DNA of 64,000 nt, taken from the NCBI RefSeq assembly GCF_000612545.2, contig NZ_CP097800.1:930001-994000 (forward strand), in the 5' to 3' direction. The notes below the pieces were generated by a model. That model searched no databases. It was not told the origin of the DNA and saw only the letters and a program-made list of their open reading frames with translations. Positions within the stretch are counted from its first letter, which is position 1. Every line of letters begins with the position of its first letter. The DNA is from Streptomyces sp. PCS3-D2 (GTDB lineage Bacteria; Actinomycetota; Actinomycetes; Streptomycetales; Streptomycetaceae). Both the position numbers and the translations under genes were made by a program. This document shows, piece after piece, positions 20,505 to 31,162 of this stretch.

Positions 20505-21245
20505 ATGAGCCCCGCCATGGAGCCGGTCCGCTGTTTACGCGCCCTACGGGCTGCGATGTTCGCAGCCCTCTGCGTGCTGCTCGCGGCCACCGGTCACCTG
20601 CTCATGTCGGGTACGGCGGTGCCCTGGTGGGCGTTCTGCCTCGGGTTCACGGGGGCGGCGACGACGGCCTGGTCCCTCGCGGACCGTGAGCGCGGCATCC
20701 TCGCCGTCACGGGGGCCGCCGTCGCCGTCCAGGCGGTGCTGCACTCGGGGTTCTCCCTGGCCCAGTCCCTCGCCCAGCCCCTCCCGCAGACGCTGCCCCG
20801 GTCCTCGGCTCCGTCCGTCGGTCTGGCGGCCGCACCGGCCACAACCGTGCCTGCGGGAGCGGCCCTTCACGCGCACCACGCCGGGCACGGGACGGCCGAC
20901 GCCCTGTCCGCACCGGCCGCCGTGCACATGGCGGGCGGTGGGCACCAGGCCTCCGCCGTGCCGATGGTGCTCATGTCCCCGGCCGGGATGCTGCTCGCCC
21001 ACCTGCTGGCCGCCGTACTGTGCGGCCTGTGGCTGGCCCACGGCGAACGCGCCCTCTTCCGCGTGGTGCGCGCCGTGGCCGCCCGGCTGCGGACCCCGCT
21101 GTGTCTGCTGCTGCGCCCGGCCGCGGTCGCGCACCGGCCGCGCCCGCGGGTGCGCCGGGCGCGCCGTACGCGCGCACCGCGGCAGCTGTTCCTCGTGCAC
21201 GCCATCACATCGAGGGGTCCGCCGACGGCGACCGCTGTCCTCTGA
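20505..21245 (+). CDS. His-rich integral membrane protein
   Basis: 246 aa with about four membrane helices (MFAALCVLLAATGHLLMSGT, WWAFCLGFTGAATTAWSLAD, GILAVTGAAVAVQAVLHSGF, MLLAHLLAAVLCGLWLAHGE) and an Arg-rich cytosolic tail. The extracytoplasmic loop holds a His/Met-rich run, LHAHHAGHGTADA ... AVHMAGGGHQ, which suggests copper or other metal binding. Similar proteins in Streptomyces often sit with copper-trafficking genes, so a metal role is plausible but unproven. ATG 20505 follows GGGAGG; ATG 20517 is an alternative. It may be co-transcribed with the sigma factor 241 bp downstream. Confidence 0.75.
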   Translation: MSPAMEPVRCLRALRAAMFAALCVLLAATGHLLMSGTAVPWWAFCLGFTGAATTAWSLADRERGILAVTGAAVAVQAVLHSGFSLAQSLAQPLPQTLPRSSAPSVGLAAAPATTVPAGAALHAHHAGHGTADALSAPAAVHMAGGGHQASAVPMVLMSPAGMLLAHLLAAVLCGLWLAHGERALFRVVRAVAARLRTPLCLLLRPAAVAHRPRPRVRRARRTRAPRQLFLVHAITSRGPPTATAVL

Positions 21246-21329: not shown

Positions 21330-21486
21330 CACGCACCTGACGCAACTGACACGCCTCGTGCACCGCATGCACGCGTGGATGCCGCGCCTCGGGCCCTCGG
21401 CCATGCCCTGCGGCAGGCCGTGCCCTTCACCGGTCCCGCCCGCTCACGCGGCACCGGACTCCCCTTGCACATAAGGACCTTTGGCG

Positions 21487-22185
21487 ATGACTCCTGCCCT
21501 GACGACCTCCCCGTCCCGTACCGCCGGCGCGCGTTCCGCCCGGCACACCGAGGACTCCGACGCCGAGGTGACCCGGCTGGCGCTCGCCGCCCGGGACGGC
21601 GACCCCACGAAGACGGACCGGTTCGTGCGCGCCCTCCACCGCGATGTCTGGCGCTACGTCGCCTATCTGAGCGCGGATGCCCAGGCCGCCGACGACCTCA
21701 CGCAGGACGTGTTCCTGCGGGCGCTGGCCGGCCTGCACCGCTTCGAGGGCCGCTCCTCCGCCCGTACCTGGCTGCTGTCCATAGCCCGGCGGACCGTGGT
21801 GGACAGCCTGCGCCACGCCGCCGCACGGCCGAGACTGTCGGACCGCTGCGACTGGCAGACGGCCGCCGAACAGGCCCAGCCGTACGACGTGCCGGGTTTC
21901 GAGGACGGCATCGCGCTGGCGGAACTGCTGGCCGCGATCCCGGCCGAGCGCCGGGAGGCCTTCGTGCTCACACAGTTGCTGGGGCTCCCCTACGCGGAGG
22001 CGGCCGAGGCGGTCGGCTGCCCGATCGGCACGGTCCGCTCTCGGGTGGCCCGGGCGCGCACCTCGCTCCTGGCGCTCCTGACGGACCCTCACACGGCCGC
22101 ACCGGACCAGGTGGCCCAGGCCGCGCAGGGCCGGCGGACCCCGAGCGGGACGCGCGCCGCGGTGCTCGCGGCTTCGGCCGCCTGA
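21487..22185 (+). CDS. ECF-type sigma-70 factor
   Basis: 232-aa extracytoplasmic-function sigma factor. Region 2 has DDLTQDVFLRALAGLHRFEG followed by ARTWLLSIARRTVVDSLRHA, and region 4 has FVLTQLLGLPYAEAAEAVGC followed by PIGTVRSRVARARTSLLALL, the helix-turn-helix for the -35 element. It lacks the extra SnoaL-like C-terminal domain of some ECF groups. ATG 21487 lies after AAGGAC; an in-frame TTG six bases earlier is possible. No anti-sigma gene follows. The targets may include the exported DUF4142 and DUF1996 genes just downstream. Confidence 0.92.
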   Translation: MTPALTTSPSRTAGARSARHTEDSDAEVTRLALAARDGDPTKTDRFVRALHRDVWRYVAYLSADAQAADDLTQDVFLRALAGLHRFEGRSSARTWLLSIARRTVVDSLRHAAARPRLSDRCDWQTAAEQAQPYDVPGFEDGIALAELLAAIPAERREAFVLTQLLGLPYAEAAEAVGCPIGTVRSRVARARTSLLALLTDPHTAAPDQVAQAAQGRRTPSGTRAAVLAASAA

Positions 22186-22532: not shown

Positions 22533-23213
22533 TTGCTGTCAGTGCAGCGGAGAAACACCCGAGGCTGGTCGATGGCCACCCGGTACTCGATCGCCAGCGG
22601 TGTCGTCATCACCGCGCTCGCGCTCACCCTGATCGCCCTGCTGGTCCCCGTGGACAAGTTCGGCAGCCGGGCGACGGCCGCCACCGCGGCGGTTCCGGCC
22701 GATGCCGACGACGGCCTGGGAACGGTGAGCACGGCATACGGGCCGCTGACCGCCGCGGACCGCGACTTCGTCCGCAAGGTCCGTCTCGCCGGGCTGTGGG
22801 AGCTGCCCGCCGGGCGGCAGGCCCAGCAACGCGGGACGCGGCCCGCTATCCGTACGGCCGGGGACCACCTCGTCGACGGCCACACCGACCTGGACCGGCA
22901 GGCCATCCAGGTCGGCCAGGCCCTCGGCATCGACCTTCCCAACCAGCCCTCCGCGCAGCAGCAGGACTGGTTGGGCCAGCTGAACCGCGCCAAGGGGGAG
23001 GAGTACGAACGGCTGTTCACCCAACTGTTGCGCCGGGCGCACGGAAAGGTGTTCTCCCTGCTGGCCGGGATCCGGGCCCAGACCCGCAACTCCATGGTGC
23101 GAGCCCTCGCCACGTCCGCCAACGCCACGGTCCTGGACCACATCACGGTCCTGGAGGACACCGGTCTGGTCGACTTCGACGGGCTCTCCGACAATGTCCC
23201 ACCGACGAAGTGA
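22533..23213 (+). CDS. DUF4142 exported protein
   Basis: 226-aa protein with one N-terminal membrane anchor (SIASGVVITALALTLIALLV) and a DUF4142 helical bundle outside: TAADRDFVRKVRLAGLWELP, QAIQVGQALGIDLPNQPSAQ, LLRRAHGKVFSLLAGIRAQT. DUF4142 is a ferritin-like-sized helical domain of unknown function common in envelope proteins. TTG 22533 follows AAGGAGG at a short distance; GTG 22542 is the alternative start. The stop is 9 bp before the DUF1996 gene, so both form one operon. Confidence 0.85.
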   Translation: MLSVQRRNTRGWSMATRYSIASGVVITALALTLIALLVPVDKFGSRATAATAAVPADADDGLGTVSTAYGPLTAADRDFVRKVRLAGLWELPAGRQAQQRGTRPAIRTAGDHLVDGHTDLDRQAIQVGQALGIDLPNQPSAQQQDWLGQLNRAKGEEYERLFTQLLRRAHGKVFSLLAGIRAQTRNSMVRALATSANATVLDHITVLEDTGLVDFDGLSDNVPPTK

Positions 23214-23222
23214 AGTGATCGC

Positions 23223-24599
23223 ATGAGTCCAAAGAGCCACAAGCGCGCCCGGTTGTCGACCAAGATCGTGGGAGTGGTCTCCGCGCTCGTGCTGGGCGGC
23301 GGCGGGGTCGCCGTCGTCGCCGGCAACGCCTCCGCGGGCCAGGACGGCAGCCGCAAGGCACAGTTGACGACCACCATCGACTGCCCCGACGTGGGCGAGA
23401 AGCTCACGGCCGTACCCGAGCAGGCCAAGGCCGAGGTCGACACGAACCTGGCCAAGCTGGACGACCAGGTGGCCGACGCCTACCGACGGCTCGCCTCCGG
23501 CCAGGCACAGGGCAACGCCCTGCTCGGCGAGTTGAAGCAGAAGCGGGAACAGACCATCAAGGTCATGTCCGACGCGATCGACCGGGCCGGTGACCCCCCG
23601 AAGGAGATCGCCTCGCTGAGCTCCTGCCAGATGAAGAAGGCGCCGGCCGAGGAGGACGGCGGAGGCGGAGCGGCGGCGCTGGCCTCGGACGCCAAGTCGT
23701 CCGCGGCCGGCAAGAAGGGCGCCCCGGCGAAGAGCGACTTCGTCAACATCACCAAGGTCCGCCCCAACGTCCGCGCGCCCCGGGCGCAGAACGGCGCCTC
23801 CAAGGGCTCCTTCAGCGTGAACTGCGGCCGCAACGAGAACGGCCACTTCAACCCCGACAACGTGATCGTCGCCCCCGGTGTGTCCAACGGCGCCCACCAC
23901 ATGCACGACTACGTGGGCAACGTGTCCACGGACGCCTTCTCCACGAACGGCAGCCTCGCCCGGGCCGGCACCACCTGCGGCAACGGCGACCAGTCCACCT
24001 ACTACTGGCCCGTCCTGCGGCTGCGGGACGGCAGGGCCGAGCGGGACGCGCAGGCGCCCGGCGGCGGGCAGGACGGCAACGTCGGCACGATCCTGAAGCC
24101 CAAGCAGGTCACGATCACCTTCAAGGGCAGCCCCCAGGGCCAGGTCAAGGCCATGCCGCGGTTCCTGCGGATCATCACCGGTGACGCCAAGGCCTTCACC
24201 AACGGCAATGCCAACGCCAACGCGTCGTGGAGCTGCACCGGATTCGAGGACCGCCAGCTGAAGGACAAGTACCCGATCTGCCCCAAGGGCAGCGACGTGG
24301 TGCGCACCTTCTCGTTCCAGAGCTGCTGGGACGGCCGGAACACCGACAGCGCCAACCACCGCACGCACGTGGCCTTCGCGGACCGCAACGGCCGCTGCCA
24401 GAAGGGCTTCACCGCCATCCCGCAGCTGGTGCAGCGCATCGTGTACCGGGTGCAGCCGGGCTCCCGGATCGCCGTGGACAGCTTCCCGGAGCAGCTGCAC
24501 AAGCCGGTGACCGACCACGGAGACTTCATCAACGTGATGTCGAACGGCCTGATGAACAGGGCCGTCAACTGCATCAACAGCGGGCGCAACTGCCGCTGA
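23223..24599 (+). CDS. DUF1996 secreted protein with helical N-terminal region
   Basis: 458-aa exported protein. A signal peptide (KIVGVVSALVLGGGGVAVVA) is followed by about 120 residues of charged helix (KAEVDTNLAKLDDQVADAYR), a Gly/Ala/Lys-rich linker, then a DUF1996 domain with GHFNPDNVIVAPGVSNGAHH, SFQSCWDGRN and HRTHVAF. The paired His/Asp and several Cys suggest a metal- or glycan-binding fold; bacterial and fungal homologues are secreted, with unknown activity. It is 9 bp after DUF4142, and a perfect 18-bp hairpin ends the transcript. Confidence 0.88.
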   Translation: MSPKSHKRARLSTKIVGVVSALVLGGGGVAVVAGNASAGQDGSRKAQLTTTIDCPDVGEKLTAVPEQAKAEVDTNLAKLDDQVADAYRRLASGQAQGNALLGELKQKREQTIKVMSDAIDRAGDPPKEIASLSSCQMKKAPAEEDGGGGAAALASDAKSSAAGKKGAPAKSDFVNITKVRPNVRAPRAQNGASKGSFSVNCGRNENGHFNPDNVIVAPGVSNGAHHMHDYVGNVSTDAFSTNGSLARAGTTCGNGDQSTYYWPVLRLRDGRAERDAQAPGGGQDGNVGTILKPKQVTITFKGSPQGQVKAMPRFLRIITGDAKAFTNGNANANASWSCTGFEDRQLKDKYPICPKGSDVVRTFSFQSCWDGRNTDSANHRTHVAFADRNGRCQKGFTAIPQLVQRIVYRVQPGSRIAVDSFPEQLHKPVTDHGDFINVMSNGLMNRAVNCINSGRNCR

Positions 24600-25020: not shown

Positions 25021-25095
25021 GGGGGTTGTTCAGAGGGGGTGTGGGTTCGGGGGTTCAGGGGTTCAGGGGTGAGGTTGTGCGGGGGTTCGGGGGTT
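25021..25095 (+). repeat. G-run cluster, possible quadruplex-forming DNA
   Basis: Eight or more runs of 3-5 G on the + strand with mostly 3-9 base loops, built from GGGGGTTC and GGGGTTCA units. It ends at the stop codon of the PucR-type gene. Confidence 0.6.
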
Positions 25096-26405
25096 CAGAG
25101 TCCGTTGACGCGGGCCATGCGGCCGACGACGAGGGGGGTGAAGTCCGCTTGGATGACCCGGGCCGTCCTGCGGGTCACGCGGGAGTGCTGACGCCGCACC
25201 TGTGCCATCAGGCGGCGGCTGCGCAGGGCCATCTCCAGTTCGAACCGGGTCCGCGGGTCACGCAGTCCGGTTCCGAAGAGCTTCTCCAGCTGGCGCATGC
25301 GGTACCGCACGGTCTGCGGGTGCACGCTGAGGGCCTTGGCCGCTTCGGGCGCGCCTCCGCCCTCGAGCCAGGCGAGCAGGGTCACCTCCAGCCGCTCGCT
25401 CTGCCGCGGTGTCAAGTCCGCGAGGGGTCGCAGCCAGCGGGCGGCCAGGGCGTGGGCCAGGGGTTCGTCCTGGAGCAGGAGCAGCGTCGAGAGGTGGTCG
25501 TCGACGAAGACGGCCCTGGGTTCCATGCCGGGTCGGCTGGGGGTCAGACCGGCCAGGCGCAGCGCCCAGCGCAGGGAAGAGGCCGTGTCCCGGATCGGGA
25601 CGGCGTGTCCCACTGCAGCGAACCGGCCGCGCAGCAGGTGCTCCAGCGGTCCGCGGTCATCCTGCTCAGGGCTCGGGACCAGCAGGCACGGCCGGCCCGC
25701 GAACATCCCGACGAGGGCGTCCTCCAGGACGCCCGCCAGTTGCTGTGCCTCGCCGGGCGTGGCCGGAACGATGGCCCGCACGGCCAGCGGGAGGGGCCAT
25801 CCGGCCGCCTCGGCGAGCTCGGTGAGGGAGCTGTCGGACGCGACGCGGTCGTCGGTGAGGGTCCTGAAGAGCTCCTGGCGGGCCCGTTCGCCCGGACGGG
25901 CTTCTTCACCGTTCTCCTCCTCGGTTCCCATCCGGGTGTTGTCCCGGACGCGTTTGAGGACCGGCTGACGGATCCCTTCGCGGGACCCGGGACGGACCTC
26001 CTCGCGGATGTCGCCGCGCCGGCCCTCGTGCGTGATCTCGCACTCGTCCGTGTATGTCGCCTCCCTGCTGACGGCCCTGCCGCGGCCTGCGCGTGCGGCC
26101 TCGGTTTCGGCCTGGGTTTCGGCCTCGGTTTCGTCCTGGTTCTCTGCCTGGTCCTGGCAGTCGTCCGGTGCTTGTTCCCGGGATCGTTCCTGGTAGCCGA
26201 GCGTGGTGAGGAGTGCCTCTTCCACCAGTTGCCGGAACAACTCTGCGTCAATGGCATCGTTGTCATCGACAAGTGCGGAAAATTCCGGAATTCCATGCAG
26301 AAGCTCCTCCACTATCTCGGCAGCCAGCGCGGGGAGTTCCCTGCGCAGGACGCGCGTCCACTCGCCTCGGGGGCGGGACCAGATGCGGTTCAGAAGTTCG
26401 CACAT
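25095..26405 (-). CDS. PucR/CdaR-type helix-turn-helix regulator
   Basis: 436-aa regulator. The C-terminus holds the PucR-type HTH: LEVTLLAWLEGGGAPEAAKA then LSVHPQTVRYRMRQLEKLFG. The middle resembles a GGDEF-like CdaR sensor region. Residues about 95-125 form an acidic low-complexity run (DQAENQDETEAETQAETEAA) of repeated Glu/Thr/Gln. The N-terminal 60 residues are helical (RELPALAAEIVEELLHGIPE). ATG 26405 has GAGGA 6 bases upstream. It is divergent from the cytochrome b/NuoF/lipoprotein module, the usual layout for a regulator of its neighbours. Confidence 0.88.
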   Translation of the reverse strand: MCELLNRIWSRPRGEWTRVLRRELPALAAEIVEELLHGIPEFSALVDDNDAIDAELFRQLVEEALLTTLGYQERSREQAPDDCQDQAENQDETEAETQAETEAARAGRGRAVSREATYTDECEITHEGRRGDIREEVRPGSREGIRQPVLKRVRDNTRMGTEEENGEEARPGERARQELFRTLTDDRVASDSSLTELAEAAGWPLPLAVRAIVPATPGEAQQLAGVLEDALVGMFAGRPCLLVPSPEQDDRGPLEHLLRGRFAAVGHAVPIRDTASSLRWALRLAGLTPSRPGMEPRAVFVDDHLSTLLLLQDEPLAHALAARWLRPLADLTPRQSERLEVTLLAWLEGGGAPEAAKALSVHPQTVRYRMRQLEKLFGTGLRDPRTRFELEMALRSRRLMAQVRRQHSRVTRRTARVIQADFTPLVVGRMARVNGL

Positions 26406-26859
26406 CGTTTTCCTCGTTCGTGCCGGGGTGAGGCTTGCCCGGGGAAGAGCGGCAAGCCCGCCGAGGTTGCCCCCCGCGTCAACATCGTTGCATGACACGG
26501 GAGTTGCGGCCCTCGTACTCCCTCCTGGAGAGGTCCGGCCGCCTATCGTCCCGGGACTTTGCCTTCTTTTTGCTGTCCGGGACGCGTAGGTGGCGGGCGG
26601 CGCGGTGGCCTGTTGCAACCTCCGCTGGAGGGGAATCTTCCGGTGTTGTTCGATGCGCCGGAGACGGGCTGCGAGAAATTATCACGTTTCGATAAATCCT
26701 GTGGAGCTGATGTGACGCTCCACGATGCTGCTGCACTCCGGCCCCAAGTTCCCTCGGCCGGCGCGGAGTTTCACAGCGCGGCCGGGCAGAGACGACAACG
26801 ACCCCCGGGTTCCGAGCGCCAGGTGGAGTGCTCGGTACCCAGGCGCACAGGAGACCTGG
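26406..26859. other. Divergent control region of the redox module
   Basis: 454 bp without a gene, between the PucR-type regulator and the cytochrome. It has a palindromic AT-rich site (26679-26695), an imperfect hairpin (TCCCGGGAC ... GTCCGGGA, about 26549-26583) and a T-rich patch near 26567-26573. All promoters for both directions must lie here. Confidence 0.5.
26679..26695. promoter_or_regulatory. Operator candidate for the redox module
   Basis: TTATC-acgtttc-GATAA inverted repeat in an AT-rich island, 165 bp before the cytochrome gene. Low-GC symmetry is rare in this 73% GC window, so binding by the adjacent PucR-type regulator is a reasonable guess. Confidence 0.35.
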
Positions 26860-27855
26860 ATGCCCTTGCCCCAGCCGCACATGCCTCGCCCGCACAGGGC
26901 CCGCCGTAAAAGCCGACACGCGGCATCGGCTCCGGCAGCGGGACGGAGGGCCGCCCGGCGGCCCTCCCTTTTGCCGACCCCCGGACGGATGAGTCCGGGC
27001 GCGCTCTGCGCCGTCGGCGCGGCCATCGTCTCCATCACCGTGGCCGCCCGCGCGGGCGCCTTCACCCAGTTCTGGGACTTCCTCGACTTCGGGGCAGGCG
27101 TGCTCTCGCTCGTCTCGCTCACCTCCACCGTGCTGTGGGGGCTGATCTCCACCGACCGACTGCTGCTGAAATCGGGGCACCGGCTGCTGGCCCAGGGCGT
27201 GCACCGCGGCCTGGCCGTGTCCGGGCTCGGCTTCCTGGCCCTGCACATCTGGGTCAAGATCGCGGGGCAGCGGACGACCGCCTCGGCGGCGGTGGTGCCC
27301 TTCACCGACATCGGACAGCCCGTGCTGATCGGTCTCGGCAGCCTGGCCGGATACCTCTTCGTCGCGGTCGCCGTCTCCGGCGCGGTGCGCAGCGCGTTCG
27401 CCACCAAGGGCCGCTCCCTATGGTGGCGCGCCCTGCACTTCGCCGCCTATCCGGCCTGGGGTGCCTCGCTGGTGCACGGGCTGAAGGCGGGCCGCGCCGC
27501 CGACCTCTATGTAACGGTGTCGTACGCGCTGTGCCTGCTCGGCGTCGCCGGCATGTTGGCCTTCCGGATCAGGTCCAGGACGAGTGAGTCACCGACCAGG
27601 CCCCCCGGAACGGCGAGTACGCAGCAACTGCCCGTCGTGGCCGCGGTCCCCCGGCAGCGACGGGAGTCGCGCGCACGGGCGTCGGGCGCGCGGGAGAAGT
27701 TCACCGGGCCGGCCGCGCCGCCCACGGACGACCAACCCGCTCTGACGGCCGTGTACGCGGCCGACCCGGCCGGCTCCTCCATGGACGCCGGCTTGGGCAT
27801 GGGCACCGCCGGCATGGACGGGGACCAGTTCGCCACCCGCGAGTGGCGGCTGTGA
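26860..27855 (+). CDS. Ferric-reductase-like cytochrome b membrane protein
   Basis: 331 aa: basic N-terminus, six membrane helices (about 45-240), and a disordered C-terminal tail of about 90 residues. Four histidines are placed as heme ligands: His115 and His129 on one helix, His193 and His206 on another, spacings 14 and 13 as in ferric reductase/NADPH-oxidase transmembrane domains that stack two b hemes. There is no FAD or NAD domain of its own; the next gene, overlapping by GTGA, encodes a NADH-type flavoprotein and may supply electrons. ATG 26860 has AGGAGA 6 bases upstream. A transmembrane electron carrier role is inference. Confidence 0.8.
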   Translation: MPLPQPHMPRPHRARRKSRHAASAPAAGRRAARRPSLLPTPGRMSPGALCAVGAAIVSITVAARAGAFTQFWDFLDFGAGVLSLVSLTSTVLWGLISTDRLLLKSGHRLLAQGVHRGLAVSGLGFLALHIWVKIAGQRTTASAAVVPFTDIGQPVLIGLGSLAGYLFVAVAVSGAVRSAFATKGRSLWWRALHFAAYPAWGASLVHGLKAGRAADLYVTVSYALCLLGVAGMLAFRIRSRTSESPTRPPGTASTQQLPVVAAVPRQRRESRARASGAREKFTGPAAPPTDDQPALTAVYAADPAGSSMDAGLGMGTAGMDGDQFATREWRL

Positions 27856-29303
27856 GCGGCTTCACGCGCCCCAGCCTCGGCTGCGTGGGCGCCCCCAGAC
27901 TGCTGGCCGGGCTCGATCAGGCCCCTCGGCTCGACCGCGTCGCCCATCTGACCACGCACGGCCAGCTACCGCGCTACCGGCCGGACGAGCTCGTCGACCT
28001 CGCCGAGAACATCGACTTGCGGGGACGCGGCGGGGCCGGGTTCCCCTTCGCCCGGAAACTGCGTGCTGTCATGCGCGCGGCCGAGGGCCGCGACACGGGA
28101 ACCGCGGTGGTCGTCAACGCCAGTGAGGGCGAACCGAGTTGCCTCAAGGACAAGGCTCTGCTGCTGCACGTCCCGCACCTGGTGCTGGACGGGGCCCTGC
28201 TGGCCGCCGCCGCGGTCGGCGCCGAGGACGTCGTCATCGGCGTCACCCGGCCGGACGTGGAGCAGTCGCTCCGCGCGGCCGTGGCGGAACGCGGTCCCGC
28301 CGGCCGTCAGGTGCGGGTGCAGGCGCTGCCCGAACGCTTCGTGACGGGTGAGAGCACCTCCATGGTCAACGGCCTGAACGGGGGGCCGACGCTGCCTTCG
28401 GGGCAGAAGATCCGGACCAGCGAGCGGGGCCTGGGCGGCATGCCCACCCTGTTCTCGAACACCGAGACCTACGCCCAGCTCGCCGTGGCGGCACGGATCG
28501 GCGCGCTGGACTTCCGGGCGGTCGGCCTGCCCTCCGAGCCCGGCACCGTGATGCTGACCATCGCCGGCCGCACGGTCGTCGAGGCGCCGCTGGGGACCCC
28601 GCTGGCGTACGTCCTGGAGCTGTGCGGGCTGGATCCCGGCCAGGGTGTCCTGGTGGGCGGTTACCACGGCAAGTGGCTGGACCCGGGGTCCGCCCGTATC
28701 GCCGACCTGTCCCGCGGTTCCCTCGCGGCCTTCGACGCGGTGCTGGGGGCGGGGGCGGTACTGCCCCTGCCGGAGGACACCTGCCCGGCGGGCGAGGTGG
28801 CACGGGTGACCCGCTGGATGGCGAACGAGACGGCCGGTCAGTGCGGCCCCTGCTTCCGGGGGCTGCCCGCGCTGGCCGACGTGATGGAGGACGCGGTGAG
28901 GGGCGGGGGCAGAACCGCGCTGGAAACGATCGAGGCCCGGATGAAAGTGGTGCGGCGCCGCGGTGCGTGCAGCCATCCCGACGGCACCGCGGCGTTCGTC
29001 GCCTCGGCGCTCGCGGCGTTCCCGGACGAGTTCCGCGACCACGCCCTCGGCAGCGGCTGCGGCCGGCGAGTGGTGGGGGCGCTGCCCCTTCCCGAGGACG
29101 AGACCCCGGAGGAACGGCTGGTGGTGGACTGGACCCTGTGCAGGGGACACGGACTGTGCGTGGACATCCTCCCCGACGTCGTACGGCTCGACGCGGACGG
29201 CTACCCGTCCCAGGCGTCCATGCCGGTACCGGCGCAGTTGCGGCAGAAGGCCCAGCGCGCGGTGCGGCGCTGCCCCGCGCTGGCGCTGCGCATCCAGGAC
29301 TGA
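27852..29303 (+). CDS. NuoF-like flavoprotein fused to a ferredoxin
   Basis: 483 aa. Residues 30-250 match the NADH/FMN module of NuoF (RGRGGAGFPFARKL at 57, VVNASEGEP at 87, LFSNTETYAQL at 200), 250-300 an SLBB-like part, and 320-400 the Fe-S module. There the usual C-x2-C-x2-C...C reads A328-x2-C331-x2-C334...C373, so the first ligand is replaced by Ala. The last 55 residues are a small ferredoxin, C430-x5-C436 ... C474-Pro, of the single-cluster 3Fe-4S/4Fe-4S type. GTG overlaps the cytochrome stop. It likely oxidises NADH and passes electrons onward; this role is inferred. Confidence 0.85.
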   Translation: MSGFTRPSLGCVGAPRLLAGLDQAPRLDRVAHLTTHGQLPRYRPDELVDLAENIDLRGRGGAGFPFARKLRAVMRAAEGRDTGTAVVVNASEGEPSCLKDKALLLHVPHLVLDGALLAAAAVGAEDVVIGVTRPDVEQSLRAAVAERGPAGRQVRVQALPERFVTGESTSMVNGLNGGPTLPSGQKIRTSERGLGGMPTLFSNTETYAQLAVAARIGALDFRAVGLPSEPGTVMLTIAGRTVVEAPLGTPLAYVLELCGLDPGQGVLVGGYHGKWLDPGSARIADLSRGSLAAFDAVLGAGAVLPLPEDTCPAGEVARVTRWMANETAGQCGPCFRGLPALADVMEDAVRGGGRTALETIEARMKVVRRRGACSHPDGTAAFVASALAAFPDEFRDHALGSGCGRRVVGALPLPEDETPEERLVVDWTLCRGHGLCVDILPDVVRLDADGYPSQASMPVPAQLRQKAQRAVRRCPALALRIQD

Positions 29304-29355
29304 ACCAACTGCACCGGGTTCAATGTTGGCGCGATCTGACAAATTCCCAGGGAGA

Positions 29356-29386
29356 TTGACATTCTCCGACAGCGGCCCCGTAGAAA
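29356..29386 (+). promoter_or_regulatory. Sigma-70-type promoter for the SCO0930-type lipoprotein
   Basis: TTGACA (29356-29361) and TAGAAA (29381-29386) separated by 19 bp, or GTAGAA at 18 bp, 45 bp before the lipoprotein GTG and inside an unusually AT-rich stretch. It suggests the lipoprotein can be made independently of the two upstream genes. Confidence 0.55.
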
Positions 29387-29431
29387 TTACCCAGGGCACG
29401 AGAACGCGAATCCTGACCTGAAGGAGAGATC

Positions 29432-30439
29432 GTGAAGAAGATGCGTCGTGGAGTATTCGCCGGGTCGGCCGTCGCGGTATTGATGCTGACCGCCGCTTGT
29501 GGCAGCGGCGAGAATTCCGCGGGAAAGCAGGATTCGGTCCAGCCGGTCGGCGACAGCAAACAGGCGGGCTCCGGTTATGACGGATACGGGGGCGGCTCGG
29601 GCGCCGTACCGGCCGCCGACACGGTCAAGAACGGCCCGGCCGGAGAGCTCAAGGTGGAGGCCAACGCGCAACTGGGGTCGACCGTCACCGACAGTGCGGG
29701 CTTCACGCTCTACCGGTTCGACAAGGACACTCCCAAGCCCCCGAAGTCCACCTGTGAGGGGGACTGCGCTGCGGTCTGGCCGGCGGTCTCCGCGGATGAC
29801 GCCTCGGCGGGCGAGGGCATGGACAAGAGCCTGCTCGGATCGGTCGAACGGGCCGACGGGACCAAGCAGCTGACCCTGGCGGGCTGGCCGGTGTACCGCT
29901 ACGCCAAGGACACGAAGCCGGGCGACACGCTCGGCGAGGGCGTCGGCGGGACCTGGCACGTGCTGGCGCCCGACGGGAAGCCGGCCAAGGCGGGCGGCGG
30001 GTCCGGCGCCGACCCGAGCGCGGGCGGCGGAGCGGGCGCGCCCGCGGGTGAGGCCGGCGGCCAGAACGAGGCGCAGGCCGATCCGGTCGGGGTCAACCGG
30101 AACACGAAGCTCGGTGCCATCCTCACGGACGCGGAGGGCCGCACCCTGTACCGGTTCGACAAGGACAGCGCCTGGCCGATGAAGACCAACTGCCTCGGCG
30201 CCTGCCTGAACACGTGGAAGCCCGCCAAGGCCGTCGACAAGGAATTGGTGAAGGGAATTCCCGCGGAATTGGTGGGAACGTTCAAGCGGCCTGACGGCAC
30301 CGAACAGCTGACGATCGACTGCTGGCCGGTGTACACCTTCACCGGGGACAAGGAAGCCGGCGACATCAACGGACAGGGCAAGCAGGGCGTCTGGTTCGCG
30401 GTCTCCGACAAGGGCAAGAAGGTGACGGCCACCGGATGA
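29432..30439 (+). CDS. SCO0930-family COG4315 repeat lipoprotein
   Basis: 335-aa surface lipoprotein; lipobox LTAAC after a short signal. Two COG4315-type repeats follow, each with LGSTVTDSAGFTLYRFDKDT-like strand, then a Cys pair before Trp (CEGDCAAVWP; CLGACLNTWK), then WPVYRY/WPVYTF, separated by a Gly/Ala-rich linker at about 185-215. This matches what I know as the SCO0930 family. Related COG4315 proteins occur in many bacteria with unknown function. Its place after the cytochrome and flavoprotein suggests an outer redox partner, but no heme motif (CxxCH) is present. GTG 29432 follows AAGGAGAG. Confidence 0.85.
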   Translation: MKKMRRGVFAGSAVAVLMLTAACGSGENSAGKQDSVQPVGDSKQAGSGYDGYGGGSGAVPAADTVKNGPAGELKVEANAQLGSTVTDSAGFTLYRFDKDTPKPPKSTCEGDCAAVWPAVSADDASAGEGMDKSLLGSVERADGTKQLTLAGWPVYRYAKDTKPGDTLGEGVGGTWHVLAPDGKPAKAGGGSGADPSAGGGAGAPAGEAGGQNEAQADPVGVNRNTKLGAILTDAEGRTLYRFDKDSAWPMKTNCLGACLNTWKPAKAVDKELVKGIPAELVGTFKRPDGTEQLTIDCWPVYTFTGDKEAGDINGQGKQGVWFAVSDKGKKVTATG

Positions 30440-30510
30440 GGCCGTGAAGCCCGCCCCCAAAGGACTTTCCGCGCCGCACAGCACCGAACAGCACGACACC
30501 CCCTGAACGC

Positions 30511-30544
30511 GTGGTGCCCGGGCCCCTCCCCTCCCGGGCACCAC
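30511..30544 (+). terminator. Terminator after the redox module
   Basis: Perfect 12-bp stem GTGGTGCCCGGG / CCCGGGCACCAC with a 10-base loop, followed by GACCCCTTTT. It closes the unit 72 bp after the lipoprotein stop. Confidence 0.85.
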
Positions 30545-30577
30545 GACCCCTTTTCCCGATCAGTCCGTGAGGTCCGC

Positions 30578-31162
30578 ATGCCGACCACCGACCGCCCCGC
30601 TCCCCGGATCCGCCCGTCCGCCGCCGTCGCCGCGGTGTGCGTCACCGTTCTGCTGTCCGGAGGGTGCGCGGGGCACGCGGCCGTGCCAGCCTCCGCGGAG
30701 GCGGGCACGCCCGGCACCTCGATCGAGGAGATCGCGAAGGCCATCGGGTGCACCGCCGAAGTCAGCGTGGAGGCGGAAGAGTTGCGGCAGGGGGGCTGTG
30801 AGACCGGGCAGGGCGCCTACCGCATGGCCACCTTCGCCGCCCGGGACGGTGCGCGCGCGTGGCTGGACGAGGCCCGGGCGTACGGCGGGATCTACCTGGT
30901 GGGCGACCGGTGGGTCGTCACCACCCAGTCCGCGGACGCCCTGAACGCGCTCCGCGAACGGCTCGGCGGCTCCGTCGAGACGGGCACCGCGCACCACGCG
31001 CCGGCCTCCGGGAGCACGGGGCCCTCCGCGCCCGACGCGGCCCCGGAGGGGAGCGCGGCCCCCTCCGCAGGCATGCCCTCCGGGGCCGCACACACTGGCC
31101 CCTCCGAACACACTGGCCTCTCCGAGCACTCGGGCCACTCGACTCCCGCCGCGGGCGGTTGA
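30578..31162 (+). CDS. Exported lipoprotein of unknown function
   Basis: 194 aa. Signal and lipobox AAVAAVCVTVLLSGGC are followed by a compact domain (IAKAIGCTAEVSVEAEELRQ, AFRMATF-like strand, GIYLVGDRWVVTTQS) of about 90 residues and a Ser/Pro/Gly/His-rich tail with repeated THTGPSEHTG-like units. The domain has the size and pattern of small mycobacterial/streptomycete lipoproteins that sense or bind ligands, but I recognise no family. GAGG precedes ATG 30578. It sits after the redox-module terminator, so it is probably a separate unit. Confidence 0.75.
   Translation: MPTTDRPAPRIRPSAAVAAVCVTVLLSGGCAGHAAVPASAEAGTPGTSIEEIAKAIGCTAEVSVEAEELRQGGCETGQGAYRMATFAARDGARAWLDEARAYGGIYLVGDRWVVTTQSADALNALRERLGGSVETGTAHHAPASGSTGPSAPDAAPEGSAAPSAGMPSGAAHTGPSEHTGLSEHSGHSTPAAGG

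Follow-up and report, generated by a model that had tools for sequence, protein, structure and literature searches.

The window, a 64,000-nucleotide stretch of the Streptomyces sp. PCS3-D2 genome (contig NZ_CP097800.1, positions 930,001 to 994,000; the source assembly is a 7.63 Mb Streptomyces genome of 3 contigs, rated 100% complete), encodes a six-helix cytochrome, a NuoF-like flavoprotein with a fused ferredoxin and several associated proteins. Together these probably form a transmembrane module that exports electrons from NAD(P)H to proteins of the envelope. The strongest argument for a general outward conduit is that the core of cytochrome, NuoF-like protein and ferredoxin is found with at least three alternative outer partners. 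I derive the function throughout from anatomy and gene neighbourhood: the gene sets and how far they are conserved, the His and Cys patterns and the fold predicted for the flavoprotein are shown here, and from these I infer the haem and cluster content, the direction of transfer, the donor, the acceptor and all contacts between the proteins. The genes at issue are as follows.

22572..23213, + strand: DUF4142 protein (PF13628, 76.5 bits, cut-off 27; N-terminal membrane helix by eye)
23223..24599, + strand: DUF1996 protein (PF09362, 92.6 bits, cut-off 27; signal peptide by eye)
25095..26405, - strand: PucR-type regulator, divergent (HTH_30, PF13556, 62.6 bits, cut-off 27)
26860..27855, + strand: six-helix cytochrome of 331 amino acids with two His pairs, presumably binding haem (alternative start at 26725)
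27852..29303, + strand: NuoF-like FMN/Fe-S flavoprotein with fused ferredoxin (alternative in-frame GTG start at 27843)
29432..30439, + strand: SCO0930-family lipoprotein (NF040526; four PF03640 repeats)

Recurrence of the gene set

The first-pass annotation of this DNA, made from the letters alone, had described three adjacent genes in the order cytochrome, NuoF-type protein and lipoprotein, divergent from a PucR-type regulator. Open reading frames and domain matches bear out this arrangement, including the GTGA overlap, in which the GTG of the NuoF-like gene at 27852 lies on the cytochrome stop. Co-occurrence in other genomes, which the annotation had named as a check, is found as well. Scanning a single genome of each species left 80 loci, every one titled as Streptomyces, which fall into clade A with 39 loci and clade B with 41. 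All three genes stand together in 36 of the 39 clade-A loci, the remainder being contig ends, and the PucR-type gene is present in 37, the other two again being contig ends. Since it recurs in clade A, the gene set is, judged from these neighbourhoods, beyond chance.

The cytochrome and the NuoF-like protein occur together in 37 of the 39 clade-A loci and in 35 of the 41 clade-B loci, with the gaps at contig ends, and in 37 of 40 further loci. The clade-B flavoproteins are 51-56% identical to that of the window, and L079, the sole clade-B neighbourhood read gene by gene, has the same GTGA overlap and an adjoining leucyl-tRNA synthetase gene. The cytochrome family, its distant ApbE-type members included, is present in 116 of 150 sampled Streptomyces genomes and in 67 of the 296 genomes of a class sample, so these bacteria may have a common and unstudied route for shedding reducing power. 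The three exceptions among the 40 further loci (L119, L144 and L155), which have no NuoF match, weigh against a general outward conduit.

These co-occurrences also bear on a different explanation, in which the flavoprotein uses its ferredoxin to supply acceptors in the cytosol, with the cytochrome and outer proteins as mere neighbours. Ferredoxins of the CxxHxxC...C pattern do serve P450s in actinobacteria. However, cytochrome, NuoF-like gene and ferredoxin are together across all groups, the same three loci apart, and I consider this explanation very improbable.

The lipoprotein is present in 38 of the 39 clade-A loci and in 0 of the 41 clade-B loci (a few of which are on short contigs). As none lies beside the clade-B loci, it was rejected as an obligatory third subunit. 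Judged by gene content, cytochrome, NuoF-like protein and ferredoxin make up the core, and the lipoprotein is optional.

Cytochrome and flavoprotein

The annotated six helices and the His spacings of 14 and 13 are confirmed by an AlphaFold2 model and by the sequence: the model (pLDDT 86.1, pTM 0.74) has six membrane-length helices, the fifth with a break, and the pairs are His 115/129 (spacing 14) and His 193/206 (spacing 13). The protein shares with Ferric_reduct/MsrQ-like cytochromes the six transmembrane helices and the two pairs of His, which helices three and five carry. Conservation of the four His, on which the first-pass reading had also been made to depend, is complete in the 73 of 73 aligned rows and likewise, apart from rows with gaps, in every group that was added afterwards. 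The match of the cytochrome to PF01794 itself is weak, 10.6 bits against a Pfam gathering score of 28 bits. At E values up to 1, matches to PF01794 are found in 32 of 52 cytochrome relatives (best 4e-5) and matches to DUF4405 in 22 of the 52 (best 1.8e-4); DUF4405 is not among the matches listed for the window cytochrome. A genome search with PF01794 gave a single match, at G000:C1:5139108-5139473, in a separate frame of 481 amino acids. In solved-structure searches no match was found for the cytochrome, nor for the cytochrome profile up to E 10.

With helix limits taken from the model, Lys and Arg total 11 in the N-terminal tail and 5 over the first 30 residues of the C-terminal one; the inner loops carry 2 and 1, and the outer loops 0, 1 and 1. 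This distribution would place H115 and H193 inside and H129 and H206 outside, a predicted topology that is compatible with transfer from the inside to the outside.

The flavoprotein matches PF01512, PF10589 and PF13459 above their cut-offs, which confirms the annotated fusion of a NuoF-type protein to a ferredoxin, and a NuoF fold is predicted for it. It scores 151.6 bits against TIGR01959, the NuoF of complex I, below the curated cut-off of 558.65. The FMN-side residues F67, K72, E95 and E97 are kept. The first of the four Cys ligands of the N3 cluster is replaced by Ala, Ser or Leu in 116 of the 116 loci examined (Ala in the window), and His378, near the last N3 Cys, is kept in 115 of them. 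Having lost one Cys but retained a His close by, this Fe-S site offers a concrete target for spectroscopy. In all 95 loci of the window's kind the ferredoxin domain (PF13459, Fer4_15; 54.1 bits, cut-off 22.4) is fused to the NuoF-like protein, and His436, between the first two ferredoxin Cys, is kept in 94 of these 95. A preference for NADPH through replacement of E185 was considered and dropped, as the HydB chain 8a6t_B, whose cofactor is NAD, carries the same E-to-S change.

From these features a path for electrons can be proposed. The cytosolic NuoF-like protein would take hydride from NAD(P)H onto FMN, and single electrons would pass through the altered Fe-S site, with its three Cys and perhaps His378, to the ferredoxin. 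The ferredoxin would reduce an inner haem at H115/H193, and an outer haem at H129/H206 would reduce envelope proteins. The recipients would in general be the DUF4142/DUF1996 pair and, in loci that have it, the PF03640 lipoprotein as well. The first-pass annotation had assigned transfer from NADH to the cell surface to the three genes together. Of this, the cytochrome/NuoF-like unit and its fitting topology stand, whereas the lipoprotein is not a fixed member and NADH as the specific donor is not supported, because several adenosine-side positions of the flavoprotein are altered.

Electrons from NAD(P)H could also pass through flavoprotein and cytochrome to menaquinone, as a side entry into respiration by an extra dehydrogenase. 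MsrQ, with which such cytochromes are compared, is described as binding quinone in passages of PMC8238504, and a single further NuoF gene (31% identical) is present in the genome, so that a second entry point is conceivable. However, this leaves the conserved outer proteins unexplained, and I regard it as improbable.

Alternative outer partners

The module is, as gene neighbourhoods indicate, larger than first described, and it takes in the genes for DUF4142 and DUF1996 immediately upstream. The upstream sequence is too short in L008, L020, L027, L028 and L035, which leaves 34 testable clade-A loci; DUF1996 is present in 33 of these (exception L031), and DUF4142 in 33 (exception L010, cut there). 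The f17 loci are from another family; the sample consists of all ten f17 genomes listed with a cytochrome match in the 296-genome class sample, and in 10 of 10 f17 loci DUF4142, DUF1996, the cytochrome and the NuoF-ferredoxin protein lie within 12 kb, with a PF03640 match in 6. Gene order varies among them, DUF4142 and DUF1996 lying upstream, downstream or divergent, and in L139 the cytochrome and NuoF matches are about 2 kb apart. Clade B has no DUF4142 or DUF1996 match (0 of 41 loci, six of them cut upstream, and L063 and L067 also short downstream).

In a maximum-likelihood tree of 58 NuoF-like rows the ferredoxin-fused proteins form one clade (99/93). Clade A (100/100) and f17 (95/87) lie opposite each other at its basal split, and most clade-B rows fall next to A; the Streptomyces row L118, labelled B, groups with f17 and f37. 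On this tree the partnership with DUF4142 and DUF1996 would either be old and then lost beside B, or have been gained twice, and either history suggests a functional linkage.

DUF4142 has E78, H105, H158, H191 and E196 conserved at 97% or more (44 rows; P0006 numbering), and DUF1996 has H226, H228, D229, H382, H426, D431, H432 and D434, together with many Cys, conserved at the same level (44 rows). These sets of His, Asp and Glu suggest metal sites, and DUF1996 is a candidate terminal enzyme. Solved-structure searches gave no match for DUF4142 and a best E of 0.021 for DUF1996. The association of DUF1996 with the module is based on gene neighbourhood. The family is common: 136 of the 150 Streptomyces genomes have it, and its use as a phyletic marker for clade A was rejected for this reason. 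Of the DUF1996 loci that lie apart from the pair, 8 were fetched, and none of these has a DUF4142 or cytochrome match; DUF1996 therefore need not always have a conduit.

The lipoprotein reaches 400 bits against NF040526, "SCO0930 family lipoprotein" (curated cut-off 275 bits). It has four PF03640 repeats, and the two Cys pairs that the first-pass annotation had pointed out are the CxxxC motifs at 108/112 and 254/258, and both are conserved. No solved structure matched it. Cytochrome and lipoprotein lie at most 4 kb apart on one strand in at least 26 of the 150 genomes, counted by eye. Members of the family also stand alone: 12 of 12 fetched top-scoring loci lack the other module genes, cytochrome and NuoF included. 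The window's own genome has a second lipoprotein gene with four PF03640 repeats (L084, 5764-6819, - strand), away from any cytochrome.

A third, more distant group of cytochromes (E about 1e-16 to 1e-27) has ApbE, an enzyme that attaches flavin, beside the cytochrome in 22 of 24 fetched loci and NuoF in 22 of 24; in 20 further loci ApbE is found in 20 and NuoF in 18. These ApbE-type relatives are L112-L115, L120-L124, L142, L143, L146-L156 and L165-L184, and their outer partner, beside ApbE, resembles a flavinylation substrate. The Cys of the fused ferredoxin are absent in 21 of 21 ApbE-type rows, and a separate ferredoxin is the next gene after NuoF in 22 of 22 NuoF-bearing loci (in L124, PF13459 at 43.2 bits). 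This ruled out a ferredoxin limited to the window's kind; by gene order, the difference between the two is a gene fusion.

The gene just 5' of apbE in these relatives encodes a membrane helix and a long tether rich in Ser, Thr, Gly and Pro. Its extreme C-terminus has the pattern [ST]-[GSA]-[GAS]-[ST] (TSGAS, TTGAS, STGGS) in 19 of 22 loci by script, or 18 once L152 is discarded, and in 15 of 20 loci of a held-out set, for which the pattern was fixed beforehand and the position window was narrower; the misses L179, L180 and L184 are Ser-terminal too. Among open reading frames of at least 80 amino acids the pattern occurs in 28 of 1682 and 17 of 902, hits included, many of them close orthologues. 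It resembles the core of the ApbE flavinylation motif, without its domain, and the tether protein is possibly a minimal flavin-carrying arm. No report of such a tether was found in listings and passages of the open-licence literature.

Two f37 loci, L105 (from 9099) and L141 (from 9343), have a DsbD/CcdA-like gene after the cytochrome/NuoF-ferredoxin pair, and in L105 a redoxin gene lies in between. The L105 protein scores 23.9 bits against DsbD_TM, just under the cut-off of 27.1, and that of L141 is 76% identical; the arrangement hints at a thiol-directed version.

Alternatively, the cytochrome may be a NOX-like oxidase, with the outer haem reducing oxygen to superoxide or peroxide, DUF4142 and DUF1996 using or removing the product, and the lipoprotein being no electron carrier. 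In a fold comparison with solved structures, however, cytochrome b6f reaches an equal score and b561 almost does, the use of oxygen cannot be read from sequence, and the outer partners of the sister groups resemble electron carriers. I therefore consider an oxidase unlikely, though the least so of the alternatives. Electron export is supported by the co-occurrence of cytochrome, NuoF and ferredoxin, the His conservation, the topology and the outer partners, which are kept through rearrangement.

Known systems and neighbouring features

The first-pass statement that no such Streptomyces pathway is known was too strong. Passages of a 2021 study (PMC8238504) describe MsrQ-like cytochromes beside NuoF-like proteins, 31 clusters with PF10589, among flavinylation clusters; these are mostly actinobacterial, and outward electron transfer is proposed there. 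The third group fits these clusters in its gene content. The window resembles them in its predicted six-helix cytochrome with two haem sites and its NuoF-like protein, but differs in its PF03640, DUF4142 and DUF1996 partners and in the absence of ApbE. No ApbE match was found in the window's assembly (the same search matched 7 of 14 control genomes) or beside 12 of 12 f17/f37 loci, and the window's version thus cannot rely on ApbE. Its ferredoxin is fused, whereas that of the ApbE-type relatives is the next gene. The kind of system is therefore already in print; what is new here is the lack of ApbE, the other outer partners and the fused ferredoxin. Tentatively, and with more doubt than the export proposal itself, these may mark a flavinylation-free class of export systems, with a 3Cys-1His N3 centre, its own ferredoxin and a two-haem cytochrome, feeding a secreted DUF1996/DUF4142 metalloenzyme system.

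Cytochromes of the DUF4405 family share the six helices and four His, and haem b spectra are reported for them in passages of PMC11334425; their partners differ from those of the window. The flavoproteins complex I NuoF, HydB and RnfC have the NuoF fold and FMN-side motifs in common with the window protein, which differs in the Ala at the first N3 Cys, the conserved His378 and the C-terminal ferredoxin. SCO0930 of S. coelicolor belongs to the same NCBIfam family (NF040526) as the window lipoprotein. It is named as part of the SigU regulon (PMC6295645) and appears in two tables, one on expression at mycelial stages (values 0.9, 4.4 and 4.3; PMC3610822) and one from a study of AfsS (PMC2267785); in the available passages of all three it is a listed gene only. 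Fungal vacuolar proteins share the Pfam domain of DUF1996, and their mutants show heightened sensitivity to oxidation and several metal ions; the abstract names no electron partner (PMC4738358). In listings and abstracts of the open-licence literature I found neither a description of the cluster nor a bacterial function for DUF1996, DUF4142 or PF03640. The present proposal links these three uncharacterised families to an electron source that can be tested, and the flavinylation-free class, if real, would give them a common redox role. HyaS, termed a copper-binding amine oxidase in passages of PMC10771440, was considered as a possible relative of DUF1996 and not used.

Three further features flank the module.

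21481..22185, + strand: extracytoplasmic function (ECF) sigma factor gene, candidate regulator of the upstream half (start uncertain; Sigma70_r2 60.8 bits, Sigma70_r4_2 57.1 bits)
30510..30545, + strand: 13-bp hairpin by folding, possible terminator without a clear T run
30578..31162, + strand: another small lipoprotein gene that may be associated (nothing in Pfam above cut-off)

The first-pass annotation had missed the sigma factor gene and the small lipoprotein gene, as it had the DUF4142 and DUF1996 genes. The genes that it did describe had been annotated as ending at one terminator. The hairpin does fold, but an intrinsic-terminator scan gave no site there, so that a single shared terminator is plausible, not shown. 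At 20505-21245, 5' of the sigma factor gene, lies a membrane protein by eye with a His-rich stretch and no Pfam match. ECF genes adjoin the cluster in 4 of the 6 loci L106-L111 of f17; their identity of 31-34% may reflect no more than the general similarity of ECF factors. The small lipoprotein gene is matched in 29 of the 39 clade-A loci, some others being cut short, and small lipoprotein genes that resemble it by eye adjoin stand-alone DUF1996 genes in L159 (6928-7392) and L162 (4947-5480).
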